A stretch of DNA of 64,000 bases, from assembly GCF_903969135.1 (NCBI RefSeq), contig NZ_LR824569.1, positions 3,431,001 through 3,495,000 on the forward strand. The letters run 5' to 3'. The notes beneath the pieces were generated by a model. It was given only the letters and a program-made list of their open reading frames with translations, was not told where the DNA came from and did no database searches. Source of the stretch: Chryseobacterium sp. JV274 (GTDB taxonomy: Bacteria > Bacteroidota > Bacteroidia > Flavobacteriales > Weeksellaceae). Position 1 is the stretch's first letter, and each line of letters opens with the position of its first letter. The position numbers and the translations under genes were made by a program. This document shows, one piece after another, positions 20,838-31,336 of the stretch.

Positions 20838-21161
20838 ATGAACCTCTTAAGATGGATACTTGCATTTTATTTCATGGCGTTATCATTGATGCCATGTGAA
20901 GACACGTCCCATCCGTTGAATTCAGGAGATAATAAGATCTCATTAAGTATTCACGGCGTTCATTCTACAGAAAAAGGAGATATCTGTTCTCCACTGTGTG
21001 CATGCAGCTGCTGTCAGATGACGGTTTCAGCATTTAAAATGGATCCTTTATTGGAGATTCCTGAGCAGATTCCGGCTTACTTTTCAAAGAAGATCTTATT
21101 TCACAAAAATGACTTTGCTTACCAGATCTACGACCCTATCTGGCAGCCTCCTAAAATTTAA
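20838..21161 (+). CDS. Small Cys-cluster membrane/secreted protein, DUF6660-like
   Basis: A 107-residue protein with a hydrophobic N-terminus (LLRWILAFYFMALSLMPC) and a dense Cys cluster CSPLCACSCC at about residues 51-60. The C-terminus is YDPIWQPPKI. It resembles small Bacteroidota proteins named DUF6660 that lie next to CusA/CzcA genes, though I cannot run that search. A metal-binding or metal-sensing role is inferred from the Cys cluster and from the efflux pump that begins 146 bases downstream. It shares its build (hydrophobic start, Cys motif, terminal xPPxx) with the proteins at 32108 and 34486. Confidence 0.7.
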   Translation: MNLLRWILAFYFMALSLMPCEDTSHPLNSGDNKISLSIHGVHSTEKGDICSPLCACSCCQMTVSAFKMDPLLEIPEQIPAYFSKKILFHKNDFAYQIYDPIWQPPKI

Positions 21162-21217
21162 TTTTTATTGACTTTTAGAAAGTTATGCTTTCTAATATTT
21201 AACTGTGCTTGAAACTT

Positions 21218-21232
21218 TGCAATACCATTGCA
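21218..21232. promoter_or_regulatory. Putative Fur-family operator upstream of czcA
   Basis: A perfect 6-3-6 palindrome: TGCAAT, ACC, ATTGCA. It lies 13 bases before the -7 box at 21246. The same palindrome, at the same distance from a -7 box, is found upstream of the P-type ATPase (29302-29316), and the similarity extends 10 more bases upstream (CTTGAAAxTT). Confidence 0.7.
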
Positions 21233-21245
21233 GAGGTTTTCAGGA

Positions 21246-21253
21246 TATTTTTG
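21246..21253 (+). promoter_or_regulatory. -7 promoter element for czcA
   Basis: TATTTTTG at 21246-21253 matches TAnnTTTG. The right half of the operator (ATTG, 21227-21230) occupies the -33 region, so a bound repressor would block polymerase. Confidence 0.6.
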
Positions 21254-21307
21254 CTGCAGTATTTTATGCTGTGTGCATTCATTTTCAATAAAAATTACCT
21301 AAAAATC

Positions 21308-24300
21308 GTGTTAGATAAAATCATAAAATTCAGTATTAAAAATAAGGTGATCATTGGGTTGATGACTCTGGTACTGATCATCTGGGGAACGTGGAGTGCC
21401 ACCAGATTGCCAATAGATGCTGTGCCGGATATCACCAACAATCAGGTGCAGATCATTACCGTATGTCCTACATTGGCGGGACAGGAAGTAGAACAGCTGG
21501 TTACTTTTCCCATTGAGCAAAGTATTGCCAATGTTCCCGATATTCAGGAGACAAGAAGTATTTCAAGATTCGGGCTCTCTGTGATTACAGTGGTGTTCAA
21601 AGAAAATGTAGATGTGTACTTTGCAAGACAGCTCATTAATGAACAGCTGAAAAATGCAGTGGAAGAAATTCCAAAAGGAGTAGGAACTCCTGAGCTGGCT
21701 CCTGTAAGTACAGGTCTTGGGGAAGTATATCAGTATATTCTTCACCCTAAAAAAGGAAGCGAAAAGAAATACAATGCCAAAGAACTCCGAACCATGCAGG
21801 ACTGGATCGTTCGAAGACAGCTGAACGGAACACCAGGCGTTGCAGAAATCAACAGTTTTGGAGGAGAATTAAAACAATATGAAGTGGCTATTGATCCCAA
21901 TCGTTTAAAAGCAATGGGAACAAGTATTACTGAAATATTTACTGCGCTTGAAAAAAACAATCAGAATACAGGAGGAGCTTATATTGATAAAAAGCCCAAT
22001 GCTTATTTTATCCGTGGGATAGGGTTAGTAACCTCCCTTGAAGATATCAAAAACATAGCCGTTAAAAATGAAACTGGAAGCGTTCCGATATTTATCAAAG
22101 ATGTCGCTGATGTTCGTTTAGGAAGTGCCGTTCGTTACGGTGCATTAACCTATGACGGAAAAGTAGATGCCGTAGGTGGAGTAGTGATGATGCTGAAAGG
22201 AGCGAACAGTAATGAAGTCGTAAACAATATCAAAGCAAAAATTCCTACCATTCAGAAATCTCTTCCCAATGATGTTATTATAGAGCCGTTTCTGGACAGG
22301 ACAGACCTTGTAGACAGAGCCATCAATACTGTACAGAAAAATCTTGTTGAAGGAGCACTGATCGTTATTTTCGTACTTGTAATTTTCCTTGGAAACCTTA
22401 GGGCAGGGCTTATCGTGGCTTCTGCCATTCCGCTTTCCTTATTGTTTGCGCTGGGAATGATGAATGTTTTTGGAGTAAGTGCCAATCTGATGAGCCTTGG
22501 GGCAATAGATTTCGGTTTGATTGTGGATGGTGCGGTAATTATTGTAGAAGCCACTTTGCATCATTTAGGAGTAAGGAAATCTGCCCGTGCATTAACGCAG
22601 TCTGAGATGGATGAAGAAGTATTTCTTTCCGCATCCAAGATCAGAAGCAGTGCAGCCTTCGGGGAAATCATTATTCTTATCGTATACATCCCAATTCTTA
22701 CTTTGGCTGGTGTGGAAGGGAAAATGTTTACTCCAATGGCAAAAACAGTAGGATTTGCCATTTTAGGAGCTTTAATTTTATCCCTGACCTACATTCCAAT
22801 GATGAGCGCCCTGTTTTTATCTAAGAAAATATCTCATAAAGAAACGTTCTCTGATAAAATGATGAATAGCCTGCAAAAGATTTATCAGCCATTATTGCAG
22901 AAATCAATAAAAGTGAAATATGCAATGGTTTCAGCAACGGCTGTAGTCTTTCTTATCTCTGCTTTTATTTTTAAAAATATGGGTGGTGAGTTTATTCCTC
23001 AGCTGCAGGAAGGAGATTATGCATTTCACTGTATTTTACCGCAGGGAAGTTCATTGAGCCAGAGTATAGAAACCTCCATGCAGGCATCAAGAATTATCAA
23101 ACAGTTTGATGAGGTGAAAATGGTGGTCGGGAAAACCGGTTCTGCTGAGGTTCCTACAGACCCGATGCCGCCTGAAGCAACCGATATGATTGTGGTATTG
23201 AAACCACAAAGTGAATGGAAAACCAAGAAATCTTATGACGAACTGGCAGATGAGATTAGTGAAAAACTGGAAACGATTCCGGGTGTATTCTTTGAGAAAA
23301 ACCAGCCTATCCAGATGCGTTTCAATGAATTGATGACAGGGATCAGACAGGATGTTGCTGTAAAGATTTTCGGAGAGAATCTTGATTCATTAGCCGTGTA
23401 TGCAGATAAGGTGGGAAAAATTATTCAGACAGTAGATGGGGCTACCGCGCCTCAGATTGAAAGAGTGAGCGGTCTTCCGCAGATTAATGTTCAATATGAC
23501 AGAACAAGAATCGCCAATTATGGATTGAATATCGAAGATGTCAATAATGCCGTAAGTACGGCCTTTGCAGGAAAAGCTGCCGGACAGGTTTTTGAAAATG
23601 AAAGACGTTTTGATCTCGTAGTCCGTCTGGATAGCCTTCACAGAACCGATATTTCGGATGTAAATAACCTGATGATCACCTCCAGCACCGGAGCGCAGAT
23701 TCCATTGTCACAAGTGGCTAACATCAGTTATAAATTAGGTCCGGCACAGATCAGTCGTGAACAAGGAAAACGTAGAATAGTTATCGGATTTAATGTAAAA
23801 GATCGTGATGTAGAAAGTGTAGTGAAAGATATTCAGGCAAAACTGGATAAAGTGAAACTGCCTTCCGGATATTACTTTACCTATGGTGGACAGTTTGAAA
23901 ACCTTCAGGAAGCAAGCAAACGTCTGATGATCGCTGTTCCGGTTTCATTGCTTCTTATTTTTATGCTGTTGTATTTTACTTTCCGCTCATTCAAACAGGC
24001 TGCATTAATTTTTACTGCGATTCCTATGAGTGCTATTGGTGGAGTATTTGCCCTTTTAATAAGAGATATGCCATTCAGTATCAGTGCAGGAATTGGATTT
24101 ATTGCCCTTTTTGGAGTGGCAGTATTGAACGGAATTGTTTTGATAGGAACATTCAACCAGTTAGAAAAAGAAGGCGAAACAGATATTCTGAAAAGAGTAT
24201 TTGAAGGAACAAAAACCAGATTAAGACCTGTATTAATGACCGCTACAGTGGCCTCATTAGGATTTTTACCGATGGCTATTTCCACCGGAGCCGGAGCAGA

Positions 24301-25669
24301 AGTACAGAAACCTTTGGCAACTGTAGTGATTGGTGGTCTGGTAACAGCTACATTCCTTACACTATTTGTTTTACCGATGCTGTATATCATTTTTAACACG
24401 AAAATTTTGAAAAGAAAAAGTAATAATACGGGAATGTTTACGGCGGTTCTTGTTGTAGGATTTATGATGCTGGGACAGACTTTTAAAGCACAGTCCAGAC
24501 CTATTTCTGTAGAACAGGCGGTAGAGCAAGCAGTGAATAATAATTTAACCCTGCAGTCAAAAGACTTAAGTATTAAGTCTGCTGAAGCTTTAAGGGCAAC
24601 CGCAAAAGAACTCCCGAAATTAAGCCTTGAAGCTCAGCTTGGACAGTATAATAGCCCAAAGTTTGACCAGTCGTTTGCAATCTCACAGAGTATTCCTTTT
24701 CCAACACTTTTTAAAGCAAGAAAAGACTTAATCAATGAGAATATTAAAAGCAAACAGATTGATAAGGAAATTACAGCGAATGAACTAGTAAAACAGGTGC
24801 GTACTTACTATTATCAGATTGAATATTTACAGTATAATAAAGCTCAGTTGACGAGGCTGGACAAATATTATGAGGAATTCATCAGAATTGCAACCGTAAG
24901 ATTCAAAGCGGGTGATATCAAAAAGATAGAAATCAGTACTGCAGAAACCCAAAAAGGAGAAATTGATCTGCTGCTCAGACAAAATGAAGTCTTTCTGAAT
25001 AATGCCTATAAGAATTTAAAGACCCTTATGAATACGTCAGAAAATCTTGAAGTTCCGTTTAACAAAGATTATGTTCCTTTAAAAGCAGAAAATGTACTCG
25101 ACAGTGCAGTGGTAGCCAACAATCCGTCTGTAAGAGCCTTTTACCAGGAAATGGAAATTGCTGAGAAAAATAAGAAAGTTGAAAAATCTCTTGGACTCCC
25201 TGATTTCAGCTTAGGATATACCAACCAGTCTTTGATTGGTCTTCATACCATCAACGGGCAGGAGAATTTTTATAACTCAGGGAAACGTTTTCAGTCGGCA
25301 ACGGTAGGAGTGGCTATTCCTTTGACTTTTGGAGCGACAAAAGCTAGGATTCAGGCTCTGGAATATGACAGACAGGTTGCAGAAACTAATGCGAAAATGC
25401 GGCAGAAACAACTTTCCGCACAGTTGGACAATGCGTTCAGTCAATACCAGCAGGATATTCAGCAGTATGATTATTACATAAGTCAGGCGTTGCCAAATGC
25501 TGAGAAAATTGTAAAAGCGGCCCAGTTAGGCTATAAAACAGGAGAGATCTCCTATGTTGAATATCTTTTTGCCCTGCAGACGGCTACAAACATTCAGCTG
25601 AAATATCTGGAATCTATCCAGCAGGTGAATCAATCTGTAGTAACTATTAATTCAATCATTAATAAATAA
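21308..25669 (+). CDS. czcA: CzcA/CusA heavy-metal RND pump fused to a TolC-like outer-membrane factor
   Basis: A 1453-residue fusion. Residues 1-1040 are a heavy-metal RND pump: VPDITNNQVQIIT near the N-terminus, the DFGLIVDGAVIIVEA stretch in TM4, and pairs of large periplasmic loops. Residues from about 1065 to the end are a TolC/CzcC-like factor (two OMF repeats with NNLTLQSKDLSIKSAEALR). Between them lies KRKSNNTGMFTAVLVVGFM...FKAQ, which looks like a signal peptide. I chose the GTG at 21308 because the protein then starts LDKIIKFSIKNKV as in homologs; an ATG at 21266 is possible, and the longer reading from TTG 21209 would start inside the operator. The pump would export divalent metal (Zn, Co or Cd) or Cu using proton flux. 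Confidence 0.88.
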   Translation: MLDKIIKFSIKNKVIIGLMTLVLIIWGTWSATRLPIDAVPDITNNQVQIITVCPTLAGQEVEQLVTFPIEQSIANVPDIQETRSISRFGLSVITVVFKENVDVYFARQLINEQLKNAVEEIPKGVGTPELAPVSTGLGEVYQYILHPKKGSEKKYNAKELRTMQDWIVRRQLNGTPGVAEINSFGGELKQYEVAIDPNRLKAMGTSITEIFTALEKNNQNTGGAYIDKKPNAYFIRGIGLVTSLEDIKNIAVKNETGSVPIFIKDVADVRLGSAVRYGALTYDGKVDAVGGVVMMLKGANSNEVVNNIKAKIPTIQKSLPNDVIIEPFLDRTDLVDRAINTVQKNLVEGALIVIFVLVIFLGNLRAGLIVASAIPLSLLFALGMMNVFGVSANLMSLGAIDFGLIVDGAVIIVEATLHHLGVRKSARALTQSEMDEEVFLSASKIRSSAAFGEIIILIVYIPILTLAGVEGKMFTPMAKTVGFAILGALILSLTYIPMMSALFLSKKISHKETFSDKMMNSLQKIYQPLLQKSIKVKYAMVSATAVVFLISAFIFKNMGGEFIPQLQEGDYAFHCILPQGSSLSQSIETSMQASRIIKQFDEVKMVVGKTGSAEVPTDPMPPEATDMIVVLKPQSEWKTKKSYDELADEISEKLETIPGVFFEKNQPIQMRFNELMTGIRQDVAVKIFGENLDSLAVYADKVGKIIQTVDGATAPQIERVSGLPQINVQYDRTRIANYGLNIEDVNNAVSTAFAGKAAGQVFENERRFDLVVRLDSLHRTDISDVNNLMITSSTGAQIPLSQVANISYKLGPAQISREQGKRRIVIGFNVKDRDVESVVKDIQAKLDKVKLPSGYYFTYGGQFENLQEASKRLMIAVPVSLLLIFMLLYFTFRSFKQAALIFTAIPMSAIGGVFALLIRDMPFSISAGIGFIALFGVAVLNGIVLIGTFNQLEKEGETDILKRVFEGTKTRLRPVLMTATVASLGFLPMAISTGAGAEVQKPLATVVIGGLVTATFLTLFVLPMLYIIFNTKILKRKSNNTGMFTAVLVVGFMMLGQTFKAQSRPISVEQAVEQAVNNNLTLQSKDLSIKSAEALRATAKELPKLSLEAQLGQYNSPKFDQSFAISQSIPFPTLFKARKDLINENIKSKQIDKEITANELVKQVRTYYYQIEYLQYNKAQLTRLDKYYEEFIRIATVRFKAGDIKKIEISTAETQKGEIDLLLRQNEVFLNNAYKNLKTLMNTSENLEVPFNKDYVPLKAENVLDSAVVANNPSVRAFYQEMEIAEKNKKVEKSLGLPDFSLGYTNQSLIGLHTINGQENFYNSGKRFQSATVGVAIPLTFGATKARIQALEYDRQVAETNAKMRQKQLSAQLDNAFSQYQQDIQQYDYYISQALPNAEKIVKAAQLGYKTGEISYVEYLFALQTATNIQLKYLESIQQVNQSVVTINSIINK

Positions 25670-25715
25670 TATAAAAGCGCTGAAATACAGTATCAGACAA
25701 AATACATTCTTAGAT

Positions 25716-26945
25716 ATGAAACTCAAATATAATATCATACCCCTTATCCTGATTTCACTATTACTGACAAGTTGTGGAAAAAAAGAAGCTTCAGAAGAAA
25801 AAGCTCCTGAGAAAACAGAACAGAAAGAACAGGCACATGAAGAAGCTCGACAAACTATAGCCTCACTCACAGAAGAACAGATGAGGTCTGTAGGAGTGGC
25901 TTTGGGAACCGTAGAAATGAAAGAGCTGACATCAACGATAAAAGCCAACGGTTTGCTCAGTGTACCGAACAGTAATAAAGCAACCATCACTTCCCTGTAC
26001 GGAGGAATTATCAAAACCATCAATATCCAGGTAGGAAGTATCGTGAAAAAAGGACAAGTCATTGCAACCATTGCCAACCCGGAATATATCCAGCTTCAGG
26101 AAGATTATCTGACTACCAACAGCAGAATAACCTATGCAGAACAGGAATACAGAAGACAAAGAGAGCTTTTTGATAATGATGCAGGAGCCAAGAAGAACCT
26201 TCAGAGTGCCGATGCAGAACTGAAAACCTTAAGAACAAAAAGAGCTTCCCTGTTGAAACAGCTTCAGATGATGGGAATAAGCCCTGGAAAAGTAAACAAT
26301 GGAAATATGAAATCCGGTCTGGTGATCACAGCACCTATCAGTGGAACGATCAGCAGTATTACAGCACAGATCGGAAGCTATGTAGATATCTCTTCTCCCG
26401 TAGCTACAGTGATTGATAACGGCTCCATCCATCTCGATCTTCAGGTGTTTGAAAAAGATCTTCCTAAAATGAGAGTGGGGCAGATTGTTCATTTTAAACT
26501 GACCAACAATCCGGAAACCGAATATGATGCAAGAATTTACAGCATAGGATCTTCTTTTGAAAATGAAAGTAAAACTATTTCCATGCATTGCGAAGTGATC
26601 GGAAACAAATCCGGACTGATTGACGGAATGAATATCACCGGAATTGTAAGCCTTGATAAAAGTACAACCCCGGCAGTTCCTACAGAAGCCATTGTAGAAG
26701 CAGACGGGAAATATTTTGTATTTGTTCAGACCGATAAAAAAGCGGAAGAAGAGCATGAAGAAAAAGGCAAACCACATCCGAAAACCTTAAACTTTGAAAA
26801 AATAGAAATAGTGAAAGGAACATCTGATATGGGATATACCGCGATAACCCCGGTGGGGAATATTCCTGACAATGCAAAAATAGTAGTGAAAGGAGCATTT
26901 TTCGTGAATGCCAAACTGGTTAATTCAGGAGAACACGAACATTAA
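25716..26945 (+). CDS. czcB: RND efflux periplasmic adaptor lipoprotein (CzcB/CusB type)
   Basis: A 409-residue membrane-fusion protein with lipoprotein signal ILISLLLTSCGKK (Cys20) and a Glu/Lys-rich linker. It has a biotinyl-lipoyl half (GGIIKTINIQVGSIVKKGQVIATIANPEY), an alpha-hairpin with QREL and TLRTKRASLLKQLQ, the second lipoyl half (APISGTISSITAQIGSYVDISSPV), a beta-barrel and a C-terminal membrane-proximal part. A His/Glu-rich insert (EEEHEEKGKPHP) and the GEHEH end may bind metal. It lies 46 bases after the pump gene and bridges pump and outer-membrane factor. Confidence 0.9.
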   Translation: MKLKYNIIPLILISLLLTSCGKKEASEEKAPEKTEQKEQAHEEARQTIASLTEEQMRSVGVALGTVEMKELTSTIKANGLLSVPNSNKATITSLYGGIIKTINIQVGSIVKKGQVIATIANPEYIQLQEDYLTTNSRITYAEQEYRRQRELFDNDAGAKKNLQSADAELKTLRTKRASLLKQLQMMGISPGKVNNGNMKSGLVITAPISGTISSITAQIGSYVDISSPVATVIDNGSIHLDLQVFEKDLPKMRVGQIVHFKLTNNPETEYDARIYSIGSSFENESKTISMHCEVIGNKSGLIDGMNITGIVSLDKSTTPAVPTEAIVEADGKYFVFVQTDKKAEEEHEEKGKPHPKTLNFEKIEIVKGTSDMGYTAITPVGNIPDNAKIVVKGAFFVNAKLVNSGEHEH

Positions 26946-27077
26946 TGAAAGTAGCCGGAACTAGTAAAATATCGATTTTTATCCTTAAATTAGAGCTGTT
27001 TACGTAATTTTTATTGAATGAAAACGGTTGGGGAAAACTCAAGATAACCTCACCGAATTTTAATAAATAACCCAATT

Positions 27078-27959
27078 ATGTTATTAAACAAAAAAATATC
27101 AGTCTGGTATTTCATCCGTGAAATAAAAAGCCAAATCCTGTTTATCGGAATGTTTGCCATAGCCATTGGCCTTTTGGACGAACTGCCATGGTTTCGCAAG
27201 ATCTCACTGCCGTTGAATATTCCTGCTTTGCTGGGAACGGCTGTATCATTGCTTCTGGCATTCCGTACTTCCCAGTCCTATGAAAGATGGTGGGAAGCCA
27301 GAACTGTTTGGGGGGCAATTGTTAACGATTCCCGGACTTTTGTAAGGTTGATTATTCAGTTTATGCCGGTGGGAAATGACAAAATAATAAAAGATTTTGC
27401 CGAAAGACAAATTACCTGGACGTATGCACTTGGGGAATCTTTGAGAAAACTGCCGTTTTCTGAAAAAGTTCAGCAATATTTGGATCAGCATCAGATCAAA
27501 GGAACCAATATTCCCAATGCAATTCTGGACGAACACTCCAGACAGCTGAAAGAAATTGCAGCTTCCAAAGGATTGACCGATTTTCAGCAGATGCAGCTGA
27601 ATGATATCATCACAAGGCTCTGCGACAGTATGGGGAAATGTGAAAGACTGAAGAATACGGTTTTTCCACGTTCTTACAGTGTTTTAGTTCATATTTTAAT
27701 CTATGTTTTTGCGGCAATTCTTCCCTTTGGACTTGATGATTCACAGCTGTTGGTAGAAATTGCCATTACTTTCCTGGTTCCGGTGACATTCATTGCTATT
27801 GAAAAAACATCCATCATCATGCAGGATCCGTTTGAAAATGGTCCTGTAGACACTCCGATGACTTCCCTGGCGCAGACCATAGAAATCAATATCAGGCAAA
27901 TGATCGGTGAGCAGAATGTTCCCCCTAAAAAAGAAAATACATCTTATTATGAAATGTAA
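27078..27959 (+). CDS. Bestrophin-family (UPF0187) channel-like membrane protein
   Basis: A 293-residue membrane protein. It carries the bacterial bestrophin signatures: hydrophobic segments at about 18-36 and 45-60, then RTSQSYERWWEARTVWGAIVNDSR, and a second hydrophobic pair at about 200-245. The C-terminal DPFENGPVDTPMTSLAQTIEI is the conserved belt segment. Bacterial bestrophins are pentameric ion channels; selectivity varies, so the ion cannot be assigned. It sits between the RND adaptor and the CDF exporter (17 bases before the latter), an unusual partner for a metal island. Confidence 0.88.
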   Translation: MLLNKKISVWYFIREIKSQILFIGMFAIAIGLLDELPWFRKISLPLNIPALLGTAVSLLLAFRTSQSYERWWEARTVWGAIVNDSRTFVRLIIQFMPVGNDKIIKDFAERQITWTYALGESLRKLPFSEKVQQYLDQHQIKGTNIPNAILDEHSRQLKEIAASKGLTDFQQMQLNDIITRLCDSMGKCERLKNTVFPRSYSVLVHILIYVFAAILPFGLDDSQLLVEIAITFLVPVTFIAIEKTSIIMQDPFENGPVDTPMTSLAQTIEINIRQMIGEQNVPPKKENTSYYEM

Positions 27960-27975
27960 TTAAACCATACACCAT

Positions 27976-28872
27976 ATGGAAAGCACACCAACACAAATTG
28001 TTTCTGCAGGAAGCAGACATAAAAAGAACCTCCTGATCGTACTCTGCCTTAGCGGAACCTATCTCATTGCTGAGGTAATAGGAGGAATTGTTACCAACAG
28101 TCTGGCGTTATTGGCTGATGCAGCCCATATGCTGACAGACGTTGTAGGATTGTTACTGGCATTTATCGCCATCAAAATTGGAGAAAGAAAAGCAGATCCT
28201 TCAAGAACATATGGGTATTACAGGACAGAAATATTGGCAGCCGTAATCAATGCGGTGGTTTTACTGGCTATTTCGATCTATGTTTTATTTGAAGCTTACA
28301 AGCGGTTTCAAGATCCGCCGGAAGTACAAAGTAAATCCATGCTGATTGTAGCAGGAATCGGATTAATCGTCAATATTGTCGGAATGATGATTCTGAGAAA
28401 AGACTCAGAAAGCAGCTTAAATATGAAAGGCGCGTATTTTGAAGTACTTTCAGACATGCTGACCTCTGTAGGAGTGATGATAGCAGGAGTGATTATGCTC
28501 ACAACAGGCTGGTACTACGCCGATCCGTTGATCTCAGCCGCAATTGGATTACTGATCTTCCCAAGAACATGGAGACTGTTGAAAGAAGCCATTAATGTGT
28601 TGCTTGAAGGAACTCCTAAAGAAGTGGATATTCATGAACTTCGTAAATCTCTGGAACAAGCTCCGGGAGTGAAAAATATTCATGACCTGCATGTATGGTC
28701 ACTGACATCAAGCGTCAATGCTATGAGTGCTCATGTGGTAAAAGAAGCAGCATATTCTCAGAATCAATTGTTAAAAATATTGACGGATACTACTGTGAAT
28801 AACTTTAAAATCAGTCATACAACTTTTCAGATAGAAGATGAAGGCTATGAAGAAAATGAAGTCCATCTGTAA
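27976..28872 (+). CDS. czcD: Cation diffusion facilitator (CDF) Zn/Co/Cd exporter
   Basis: A 298-residue CDF with six predicted membrane segments. The metal-site motifs are DAAHMLTDVVGL (HxxxD in TM2) and EVLSDMLTSVGV (SDxxxS-type in TM5), which fit Zn-type members. The cytoplasmic C-terminal domain has HDLHVWSLTSSVNAMSAHV. It exchanges cytoplasmic metal for protons. It lies 17 bases before the regulator gene and probably belongs to the same transcript. Confidence 0.93.
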   Translation: MESTPTQIVSAGSRHKKNLLIVLCLSGTYLIAEVIGGIVTNSLALLADAAHMLTDVVGLLLAFIAIKIGERKADPSRTYGYYRTEILAAVINAVVLLAISIYVLFEAYKRFQDPPEVQSKSMLIVAGIGLIVNIVGMMILRKDSESSLNMKGAYFEVLSDMLTSVGVMIAGVIMLTTGWYYADPLISAAIGLLIFPRTWRLLKEAINVLLEGTPKEVDIHELRKSLEQAPGVKNIHDLHVWSLTSSVNAMSAHVVKEAAYSQNQLLKILTDTTVNNFKISHTTFQIEDEGYEENEVHL

Positions 28873-28889
28873 AAAATTAAAAACTTACA

Positions 28890-29309
28890 ATGAAAAAAGA
28901 TATAGAACACAAACTCATTGATAAAAATACCAAACCTACCAGTATGAGGATTTTGGTATATGATTTTTTAAGCTCTCAGGAAGCGGCTTTATCCCTTTCT
29001 GAAATAGAAAATTATTTTGACAATGCTGACAGAATTACCATCTACAGAACATTGAAAACCTTTGAAGAAAAAGGAATTGTTCACAGCATTCAGGAAAATA
29101 CAACCACAAAATACAAATTATGCGAAGACGATTGCGATGAAAAAACACATAAAGACTGGCACCTGCATTTCTATTGTAAAATATGCAAACAAACCACCTG
29201 CAAAGAAGATATTTCCTTTCCTGAAAACATACAGACCAATTTCAGGATTGATGAAATACGACTCTTTGCCAAAGGAATCTGCGAAAACTGTCTTGAAAGT
29301 TTGCAATAG
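28890..29309 (+). CDS. Fur-family metal-responsive transcriptional repressor
   Basis: A 139-residue Fur-family protein. The N-terminal winged helix includes PTSMRILVYDFLSSQEAALS and ADRITIYRTLKTFEEKGIVH. The dimerisation part has HLHFYCKICKQTTCKED with the CxxC pair and CENC at the end for a structural zinc. It is small and Zur/PerR-like in size. The gene lies between the CDF and P-type ATPase genes, and its last codons overlap the palindrome at 29302-29316, so the gene's own end carries a candidate operator. Metal specificity cannot be told from sequence. Confidence 0.9.
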   Translation: MKKDIEHKLIDKNTKPTSMRILVYDFLSSQEAALSLSEIENYFDNADRITIYRTLKTFEEKGIVHSIQENTTTKYKLCEDDCDEKTHKDWHLHFYCKICKQTTCKEDISFPENIQTNFRIDEIRLFAKGICENCLESLQ

Positions 29310-29316
29310 CATTGCA
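29302..29316. promoter_or_regulatory. Putative Fur-family operator upstream of the P-type ATPase
   Basis: Palindrome TGCAAT, AGC, ATTGCA at 29302-29316, perfect in both arms. It overlaps the last codon and stop of the Fur-family gene. The distance to the following -7 box (29330) is 13 bases, the same as in the czcA copy. Confidence 0.7.
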
Positions 29317-29329
29317 TCAGTCTCATCTT

Positions 29330-29337
29330 TACATTTG
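29330..29337 (+). promoter_or_regulatory. -7 promoter element for the P-type ATPase
   Basis: TACATTTG at 29330-29337 matches TAnnTTTG and lies 16 bases before the ATG at 29354. Confidence 0.6.
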
Positions 29338-29353
29338 TATAAAAATATCAGTT

Positions 29354-31336
29354 ATGGAAAAATGCTGTAGTACAACCCCGGAAAAGCCCGATACAAAAGG
29401 GCACAAACATAACCATTCAGAAGGAGATGGACATGACCACGATGGCCATGATCATTCTCACGATTCCGCAGATCAGACGGTCTTTCAGATGTTTCTTCCT
29501 GCAATTATATCCTTTGCGATCTTATTATTGGGAATTGCCTTTGATAACTATATAAAACCCTTATGGTTTACTGGCTGGGTACGTTTGGTATGGTTCCTGG
29601 CGGCTTATATTCCCGTAGGATTCCCTGTATTGAAAGATGCCTATAAAAGTATCATCAAAGGAGATGTGTTTTCAGAATTCTTTCTGATGAGCATTGCAAC
29701 CATTGGGGCTTTTGTCATTGGAGAATACCCGGAAGGAGTAGCGGTAATGCTCTTTTATGCCGTAGGAGAAGTATTTCAGTCTATGGCAGTGACCAGAGCC
29801 AAAGGAAATATAAAAGCACTATTGGATCAGCGTCCTGATGAGGTAACCGTGATGGAAAATAATCAGCCTAAAACAATGAAAGCTAAAGAAGCTAAAATTG
29901 GAGATATTATTCAGCTGAAACCCGGTGAAAAACTGGCTCTGGATGGAGAACTGCTTTCAGATTCAGCTTCATTCAACACGGCGGCCTTAACAGGAGAAAG
30001 TAAACCTGATACCAAAAATAAAGGCGAAGTCGTTCTTGCCGGAATGATAAACATGAACAGTATTGCTTTGGTTAAAGTAAATACGGCCTATGAAGACAGT
30101 AAATTGAGTAAAATTCTGGAACTGGTTCAGAATGCCACAGCGCAGAAAGCTCCTACCGAATTATTCATCAGAAAATTTGCTAAAGTATATACCCCTATTG
30201 TAGTATTTCTTGCCATAGGAATCTCTTTACTGCCCTATTTCTTTGTGAGCGATTATCAATTCAGAGACTGGCTGTACAGAGCATTGATTTTCCTTGTCAT
30301 TTCTTGTCCTTGTGCATTGGTAATCTCTATTCCGTTAGGGTATTTCGGAGGAATCGGAGCCGCAAGCCGAAACGGAATTTTATTCAAAGGAAGTAATTTC
30401 CTGGACAGCATTGCAGAGATTCAGAATGTCGTGATGGATAAAACAGGAACGATGACAGAAGGTGTATTCAAAGTTCAGGAAGTAAGCATGAACCCTGAAT
30501 TTAACAAAGAAGAAATCCTTCAGATGGTCAATGCCCTCGAAAGTAAAAGTACCCATCCGGTAGCAACAGCTATTCACAATTATGTAGGAGATATCAATCA
30601 CGCCATTCCTTTAGAAAATGTAGAAGAAATTGCCGGTCACGGACTGAAAGCGACTGTTAACGGTAAAGAACTTCTGGTAGGGAATTTTAAGCTGATGGAT
30701 AAATTCAGTATCAGTTACGATACCAACCACTCCAGTATTGTTTACACCGTGATCGCAGTAGCTTATGACAAAAAGTTCGTAGGGTATATCACGATTGCTG
30801 ACAGCATAAAAGAAGATGCTAAAGAAACCGTAGACAATCTGCATAAAATGAATGTAAAAGCTACGATGCTGAGCGGTGATAAAGGAACCGTGGTGAAATA
30901 TGTAGCAGATCAGCTGGGAATTGACAATGCATTTGGAGATCTGCTGCCTGAAGATAAAGTAAATAAGGTTAAAGAAATCAAAGCTAAAAACCAAACGGTA
31001 GCTTTCGTAGGAGACGGAGTGAATGACGCACCTGTAGTTGCTTTAAGTGATGTGGGAATTGCGATGGGAGGTTTAGGAAGTGATGCCACTATTGAAACAG
31101 CTGATGTCGTGATTCAGGATGATAAACCGAGTAAAATTCCAATGGCAATCAACATCGGGAAACAAACGAAAAAGATCGTTTGGCAGAATATCATTCTTGC
31201 CTTCGCGGTAAAAGCAGTTGTTCTTATCCTGGGAGCAGGAGGGTTGGCAACCATGTGGGAAGCTGTTTTTGCAGATGTGGGAGTCGCATTGCTGGCAATT
31301 TTAAATGCAGTGAGAATTCAGAGGATGAAATTTTAA
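29354..31336 (+). CDS. zntA: Heavy-metal translocating P1B-type ATPase (Zn/Cd type)
   Basis: A 660-residue P1B-type ATPase. I chose the ATG at 29354, which gives MEKCCSTTPEK; the longer reading from 29312 would start inside the operator. The N-terminus has a His/Asp-rich stretch (HKHNHSEGDGHDHDGHDHSH) instead of a ferredoxin-like HMA domain. Eight membrane segments are expected. The metal-site motif CPC is at 318-320, the phosphorylation site DKTGT starts at Asp362, the HP locus is STHPVATAIH, and GDGVNDAP lies near the end. CPC without an HMA domain, plus the CDF neighbour, favours Zn/Cd export. It is probably controlled by the operator just upstream. Confidence 0.92.
   Translation: MEKCCSTTPEKPDTKGHKHNHSEGDGHDHDGHDHSHDSADQTVFQMFLPAIISFAILLLGIAFDNYIKPLWFTGWVRLVWFLAAYIPVGFPVLKDAYKSIIKGDVFSEFFLMSIATIGAFVIGEYPEGVAVMLFYAVGEVFQSMAVTRAKGNIKALLDQRPDEVTVMENNQPKTMKAKEAKIGDIIQLKPGEKLALDGELLSDSASFNTAALTGESKPDTKNKGEVVLAGMINMNSIALVKVNTAYEDSKLSKILELVQNATAQKAPTELFIRKFAKVYTPIVVFLAIGISLLPYFFVSDYQFRDWLYRALIFLVISCPCALVISIPLGYFGGIGAASRNGILFKGSNFLDSIAEIQNVVMDKTGTMTEGVFKVQEVSMNPEFNKEEILQMVNALESKSTHPVATAIHNYVGDINHAIPLENVEEIAGHGLKATVNGKELLVGNFKLMDKFSISYDTNHSSIVYTVIAVAYDKKFVGYITIADSIKEDAKETVDNLHKMNVKATMLSGDKGTVVKYVADQLGIDNAFGDLLPEDKVNKVKEIKAKNQTVAFVGDGVNDAPVVALSDVGIAMGGLGSDATIETADVVIQDDKPSKIPMAINIGKQTKKIVWQNIILAFAVKAVVLILGAGGLATMWEAVFADVGVALLAILNAVRIQRMKF

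Follow-up and report, generated by a model that had tools for sequence, protein, structure and literature searches.

Two promoters in the 64,000-nucleotide stretch of the Chryseobacterium sp. JV274 genome analysed here (the window), those of the metal-efflux gene czcA and of a P-type ATPase gene, share one operator-promoter module, and the second copy of the module overlaps the end of a Fur-family regulator gene (28890-29309). The Fur-family protein very probably pairs with this operator, the 16-bp palindrome TTGCAATNNNATTGCA, which it would bind before czcCA, the P1B-type ATPase gene and, outside the window, a CzcN-like gene. In our working model, which we judge somewhat likelier to be right than wrong, excess metal, probably Zn or Cd, would load the protein, and the metal-loaded protein, bound to its fixed-spacing palindrome, would sit over the -33 region and switch on the predicted export genes. 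Fur proteins are best known as repressors of metal uptake; judged from sequence, the present protein is apparently a dedicated efflux regulator whose operator is built into its own stop codon, and would thus represent a new form of Fur-family metal control.

The palindrome TGCAAT-N3-ATTGCA occurs in perfect form at 21218-21232 and 29302-29316, at both loci in the fuller form TTGCAAT-N3-ATTGCA, and in each case exactly 13 nucleotides (nt) separate it from a TAnnTTTG -7 box, as the first-pass annotation of this DNA had described. The overlap of the ATPase copy with the regulator gene was likewise confirmed, the 3' end of fur inside the operator reading TTG CAA TAG (Leu-Gln-stop). The 25-mers of the two loci, CTTGAAA[C/G]TTTGCAATA[C/G]CATTGCA, do differ at two positions as claimed, but the upstream CTTGAAA, which the annotation had counted among the shared bases, was rejected as part of the module: at the ATPase copy it belongs to the coding sequence of fur, and the third site of the genome lacks it. 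That site lies outside the window, in which no third perfect copy was found, in agreement with the annotation. Across the genome (one contig, C1, of 5,227,721 bases), the perfect 15-mer TGCAATNNNATTGCA had 3 copies and the reversed control 0, an excess over chance. The third copy, at C1:348890-348904, is followed 13 nt later by a one-mismatch -7 box, GAAATTTG, and stands directly 5' of a gene for a 203-amino-acid PEMT/ICMT-family, CzcN-like protein, unlinked and 3 Mb away, so that all three perfect sites precede predicted export genes (czcCA, P1B ATPase, and ICMT). Sequence comparison supports the earlier proposal of a Fur-family protein in control of pump and ATPase alike, but the regulon is not local, and the palindrome was not scattered in numerous unrelated places in this genome. 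For the 37-bp module, 3 sites with 0 or 1 mismatch and 3 with 3 mismatches were found genome-wide, and the reversed control gave 1 match at ≤3 mismatches. Within the window, 15-mers with ≤2 mismatches were at chance level (7 found versus 6.16 expected), and weight was therefore given to near-perfect copies only. Two further groups of candidate targets were rejected: at the 14 single-mismatch palindromes of the genome, every -7 box position 13 nt away, whichever the strand, has 3 or more mismatches, and the best palindrome upstream of a second czc homologue at C1:494810 carries 3 mismatches.

Within the genus, the regulator (fur at E ≤ 1e-20) and the 37-bp module (≤1 mismatch) were both present in 66 of 70 genomes, the present one included, and both missing from the remaining four (G053, G060, G064, and G067); the reversed control pattern was found in none of all 117 genomes. 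Part of this agreement is trivial, given that the regulator gene and the ATPase copy overlap, and the unlinked sites and the four exceptions were therefore examined. A search of fur 3' ends that did not require a match placed the module, with 0 or 1 mismatch, at a constant offset in 65 of 67 fur copies. Next come 31 loci picked because their sites looked unlinked or unusual, with the unlinked sites of G016, G023, G037, G054, and G069 left out: here all 36 sites with 0 or 1 mismatch preceded one of seven gene types, namely, ICMT (16), CzcCA (9), P1B ATPase (5), DUF6660 (2), fur (2), CDF (1), and transglutaminase-like (1), the last two identified by Pfam; this count omits four rows with 2 or 3 mismatches, at least 2 of which are reverse-strand readings of listed sites. 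G028 and G055, whose nearest czcCA is elsewhere, have an operator copy upstream of fur itself, and a second cluster in G032 has its own fur (76% identical) with its own sites. The site of G048 was considered as an exception and rejected as such; its transglutaminase-like gene resembles the gene after the site in 11 of 80 loci from the wider scan below, a resemblance judged by N termini, with Pfam checked for G048 and, among the 11, for L301. In L220 (G021), about 2.2 kb separates fur from the operator, which has stayed with the ATPase.

Other Fur-family genes are present in the four genomes without the regulator, two in G060 and one in each of the other three. In G067, the czcCA site has one mismatch in the operator and one in the -7 box, and a 25-codon C-terminal fur stump (L194 8623-8697) lies beside a decayed site with two operator mismatches; neither fur nor this ATPase was found there. 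Two operator mismatches were also present in the czcCA site of G060 and in the ATPase site of G064, the latter with loss of its -7 box, and no site was found in G053. We read these weaker sites as relics that decayed after loss of the regulator. The czc-ATPase clusters of G060 and G053 include an ICMT gene (about 42% identical), which supports the link between ICMT and metal export independently of the operator.

A scan of genomes with the regulator alignment extended the pairing beyond the genus. Its best 80 of at least 587 loci came from Chryseobacterium, Epilithonimonas, Kaistella, Flavobacterium, Paenimyroides, Avrilella, Salegentibacter, Apibacter, Vaginella, Sphingobacterium, Parapedobacter, and some metagenome bins. 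The 16-mer followed fur with 0 or 1 mismatch in 77 of these 80 loci, the others being L270 (two mismatches), L296, and L313, and in 68 loci the fur stop codon lay inside the 16-mer, as TAG in 66 and TAA in 2. The first gene past the site encoded a P1B ATPase in 57 of the 77 loci, ICMT in 3, CDF in 3, and DUF6660 in 1; of the 13 without a reference match, 11 start like the transglutaminase-like protein, L306 is PEMT/ICMT-like by Pfam, and L279 is a short open reading frame (ORF) before an ATPase. The gene behind the site therefore differs between lineages (P1B ATPase, CDF, ICMT, transglutaminase-like, CzcCA, DUF6660, or fur), while the operator and the 13-nt spacing (rarely 12 or 14 nt) hardly vary. 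Because the site keeps a nearly constant distance to the promoters of predicted export genes and usually overlaps the stop codon of the neighbouring Fur-family gene, the regulator likely binds it. The transglutaminase-like protein recurs in the predicted regulon, for example, at L301:6471-7187 and L129:1026-1727.

The regulator matches the PF01475 profile (29.1 bits versus a cut-off of 23.1), and Fur-family structures were the top matches in a fold search (best E, 1.2e-07; template modelling score, about 0.5). Among 66 aligned regulators, from 65 genomes plus one second copy, C78, C82, H87, H91, H93, C99, C104, C131, and C134 are invariant, and C96 is kept in 65. The paired CxxC structural zinc site, which some Fur-family members lack, is present as C96/C99 and C131/C134, and the sulphur-rich conserved residue set would suit Zn or Cd. 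The protein shares 100% identity with its Chryseobacterium panacisoli counterpart and is accompanied in its genome by two other Fur-family genes. Its closest solved relative by sequence is Zur (4mtd; E, 2.8e-05), and it scored 32.5 bits against the NCBIfam Zur model, whose cut-off is 167. Repression of zinc-uptake genes, a Zur trait, is not seen as far as the three perfect sites tell, and behind these sites there are no peroxide genes of the kind that mark a PerR regulon. No Nur chain was found by sequence at E ≤ 1e-3 among solved structures or in the best 50 of 58 fold matches (E ≤ 0.001). The operator, read as TTGCAA-N5-TTGCA, nevertheless fits the Streptomyces Nur box, tTGCaa-N5-ttGCAA, although Nur itself is described as a nickel-specific regulator of superoxide dismutase genes (PMC3919588).

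Among the 77 protein-fetched sites, the exact -7 box lay 13 nt past the operator in 63 and 12 nt past it in 2. Between 3 and 29 nt, no other distance occurred; the remaining 12 sites had no exact box in this range, and those examined had a one-mismatch box at 13 nt or, in L307, at 12 nt. With the T of TAnnTTTG placed at -12 (PMC6847099), the operator spans -41 to -26, with its centre near -33. This T, nearly invariant in Flavobacterium johnsoniae promoters (PMC6847099), is missing from 12 of 17 ICMT promoters (16 from the picked loci plus that of the present genome). In 143 other promoters sampled from these genomes, TTG upstream of TAnnTTTG peaked at a gap of 19 (14 promoters versus ≤8 at any other gap between 10 and 31). 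The operator centre falls on this slot, which TTG occupied in 0 of 115 sites; loci chosen by the 13-nt pattern are part of that set. The rigid spacing, the lack of a -33 element, and the imperfect -7 boxes would fit an activator that contacts polymerase, as PhoB and MotA do, and our preference for activation over repression is moderate.

The sign of control is where the strongest competitor lies. It keeps the same regulator and operator and supposes that the protein represses from -33 in low metal and is released by excess metal or cysteine oxidation, an account we consider doubtful but worth taking seriously. The -33 region, which the operator covers, is a classic position for a steric block, most Fur proteins are repressors, and release is the way in which ArsR-type efflux regulators work. 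A repressor, however, needs neither rigid spacing nor a TTG-free -33 slot, and the -7 boxes of furless G064 and G067 have decayed too, where a derepressed promoter would be expected to retain its box; G060, also without fur, keeps the -7 form CATCTTTG, which is found in fur-bearing genomes as well. The Fur-family proteins described in PMC9993123 and PMC4222909, moreover, bind DNA in the metal-loaded state. Several points weigh against the working model or limit its support. F. johnsoniae promoters have a weak -33 element (PMC6847099), so its absence says little, and repression is kept as a candidate for the same reason; a protein bound at -33 could equally block polymerase; and the fixed spacing is partly inherited, because the same genes recur. 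The best-80 loci share species with the other genome set and are not independent of it, and most have a common cluster ancestry. At the thresholds used, no site was found near the distant fur relatives (about 31 to 48% identical) of G082, G085, G092, G093, G107, G110, and G076, from which it follows that the pairing of fur and site weakens with distance; G085 has one site before a CDF gene on a different contig, and a site is present in G100 and at the third fur of G032. A recognisable site is retained in three of the four furless genomes, and the czcCA operator of G067 is of equal quality to those of fur-bearing G028 and G055, which speaks against a strict form of the pairing. The protein model is of modest confidence (predicted local distance difference test score, 72.6), with its metal sites not resolved.

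It is improbable that another regulator reads the site. One such protein would be a Zur-like Fur paralogue at C1:562725-563111, whose Cys/His pattern resembles that of the window regulator and which is divergent from genes for a short membrane protein and what we take, from its sequence, to be a COG0523/CobW-type protein (L229:2223-4244, equal to C1:562722-564743). Between the paralogue and these divergent genes lie two TGCAACAAAGTT-type (TGCAAC-AAA-GTT-type) sites, TGCAACAAAGTTGCT and TGCAACAAAGTTACA, at 563119 and 563159, which are one symmetric base away from the studied operator plus one further mismatch each. The operator, however, is linked to the fur gene of the window and not to the paralogue, and although the paralogue was found in 48 of the 70 genus genomes (E ≤ 1e-30), the 18 genomes with the window's fur and without the paralogue all carry the module. 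Least credible of all is that the palindrome is a non-regulatory dispersed repeat or a chance likeness. One locus lends it some support, L357 of the distant genome G113, where four perfect intergenic TTGCAAT-N3-ATTGCAA 17-mers (4930, 7427, 7460, and 13597) occur in a region in which no Fur or metal reference protein was matched. In the present genome, the three perfect copies in 5.23 Mb all precede predicted metal-export genes, and the -7 spacing and the gene set are conserved across genera; of at least 18 perfect 16-mers that the genus has outside the module, 12 are inside ORFs, 2 are in ICMT promoters (the spacing being 14 nt or the -7 box weak), and 4 are elsewhere. A larger Zur regulon of the paralogue was also considered and rejected, as the site at C1:1439156 is inside an ABC transporter ATPase gene and that at C1:1965276 has no uptake gene nearby, leaving only the pair at 563119 and 563159 in support.

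The first-pass annotation had called Fur-family control of efflux genes unusual. Precedents are on record: metal-loaded Zur activates the exporter gene zitB in Streptomyces coelicolor (PMC5472717), and Fur activates the P-type ATPase exporter gene pfeT in Bacillus subtilis (PMC9993123). What is unusual here is that the perfect sites all precede predicted export genes. The zitB case resembles ours in that a palindromic promoter box brings a Fur-family protein to a cation exporter gene (PMC5472717), but S. coelicolor Zur is a repressor of uptake genes as well, with a box located upstream of -35, whereas here the box is on -33 and the perfect sites stand before export-assigned genes. The B. subtilis case shares Fur-family control of a P-type ATPase exporter, with Fur as activator, but concerns iron, and Fur and PerR are described as global regulators that act on other genes too (PMC9993123). 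A Fur-family complex has been solved on similar DNA, TTGCAA-N5-TTGCAA, for Magnetospirillum MgFur at feoAB1 (4rb3, which is also among the fold matches of the present regulator), although MgFur is an iron regulator and the crystal DNA had three changes that made it near-perfect (PMC4506495). Like the third target, CzcN/NccN of Cupriavidus is an ICMT-type membrane methyltransferase, encoded in a czc cluster, so that the third site, too, points to metal export; a Fur-family regulator does not figure in the CzcN/NccN account (PMC7563307). No description of the present regulator-operator system was found in open-access titles and the starts of abstracts, among the matches listed.

If the working model is correct, it would identify what is likely the sensor of metal excess in Chryseobacterium, Sphingobacterium, and their relatives, make the operator usable for regulon prediction, connect metal export with the CzcN-like methyltransferase, the transglutaminase-like protein, and DUF6660, and offer a naturally occurring example of a Fur-family member that has changed from uptake guard to efflux driver. 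More tentatively, and with less confidence than in the model itself, Bacteroidota may have a dedicated Fur-family efflux activator that is the mirror image of Zur. The two paralogues would be split by one symmetric base (TGCAAT-N3-ATTGCA for export, TGCAAC-N3-GTTGCA by the CobW-type gene), the export protein would replace the missing -33 element, and the stop-codon operator would weld the regulator to its first target through gene swaps and transfer between lineages. With paralogue sites one symmetric base apart, the way in which operator specificity evolves would be open to direct testing.

Features of the window that carry or surround the two operator-promoter modules
Feature	Position	Strand	Basis or remark
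DUF6660 small Cys-rich protein	20838..21161	+	upstream of czcCA
Operator 1	21217..21232	+	TTGCAATACCATTGCA, 5' of czcCA
-7 box of czcCA	21246..21253	+	TATTTTTG, 13 nt past operator 1
CzcA-type RND permease fused to outer-membrane OEP domain	21308..25669	+	TIGR00914, PF00873, PF02321
CzcB-type periplasmic adaptor	25716..26945	+	profile matches
Bestrophin-like membrane protein	27078..27959	+	PF25539
CDF cation efflux protein	27976..28872	+	PF01545, TIGR01297
Fur-family regulator, 139 amino acids, proposed operator reader	28890..29309	+	PF01475, fold, conservation
Operator 2	29301..29316	+	TTGCAATAGCATTGCA; covers final two codons and stop of fur
-7 box of P1B ATPase	29330..29337	+	TACATTTG, 13 nt past operator 2
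P1B-type heavy-metal ATPase	29354..31336	+	TIGR01525, TIGR01512; CPC motif; His-rich N terminus

The ATPase scores over the cut-off of the Cd-family model, and DUF6660 genes bear the operator in some relatives. In G032, the third, distant fur (37% identical; L136:6336-6790) adjoins a DUF6660-CzcCA-CzcB group, with a palindrome at 12-nt spacing. The GTG start of czcA at 21308 is our assignment, the listed ORF starting at TTG 21209; from this GTG, the RND permease and the outer-membrane OEP domain form a single chain of about 1,450 amino acids.

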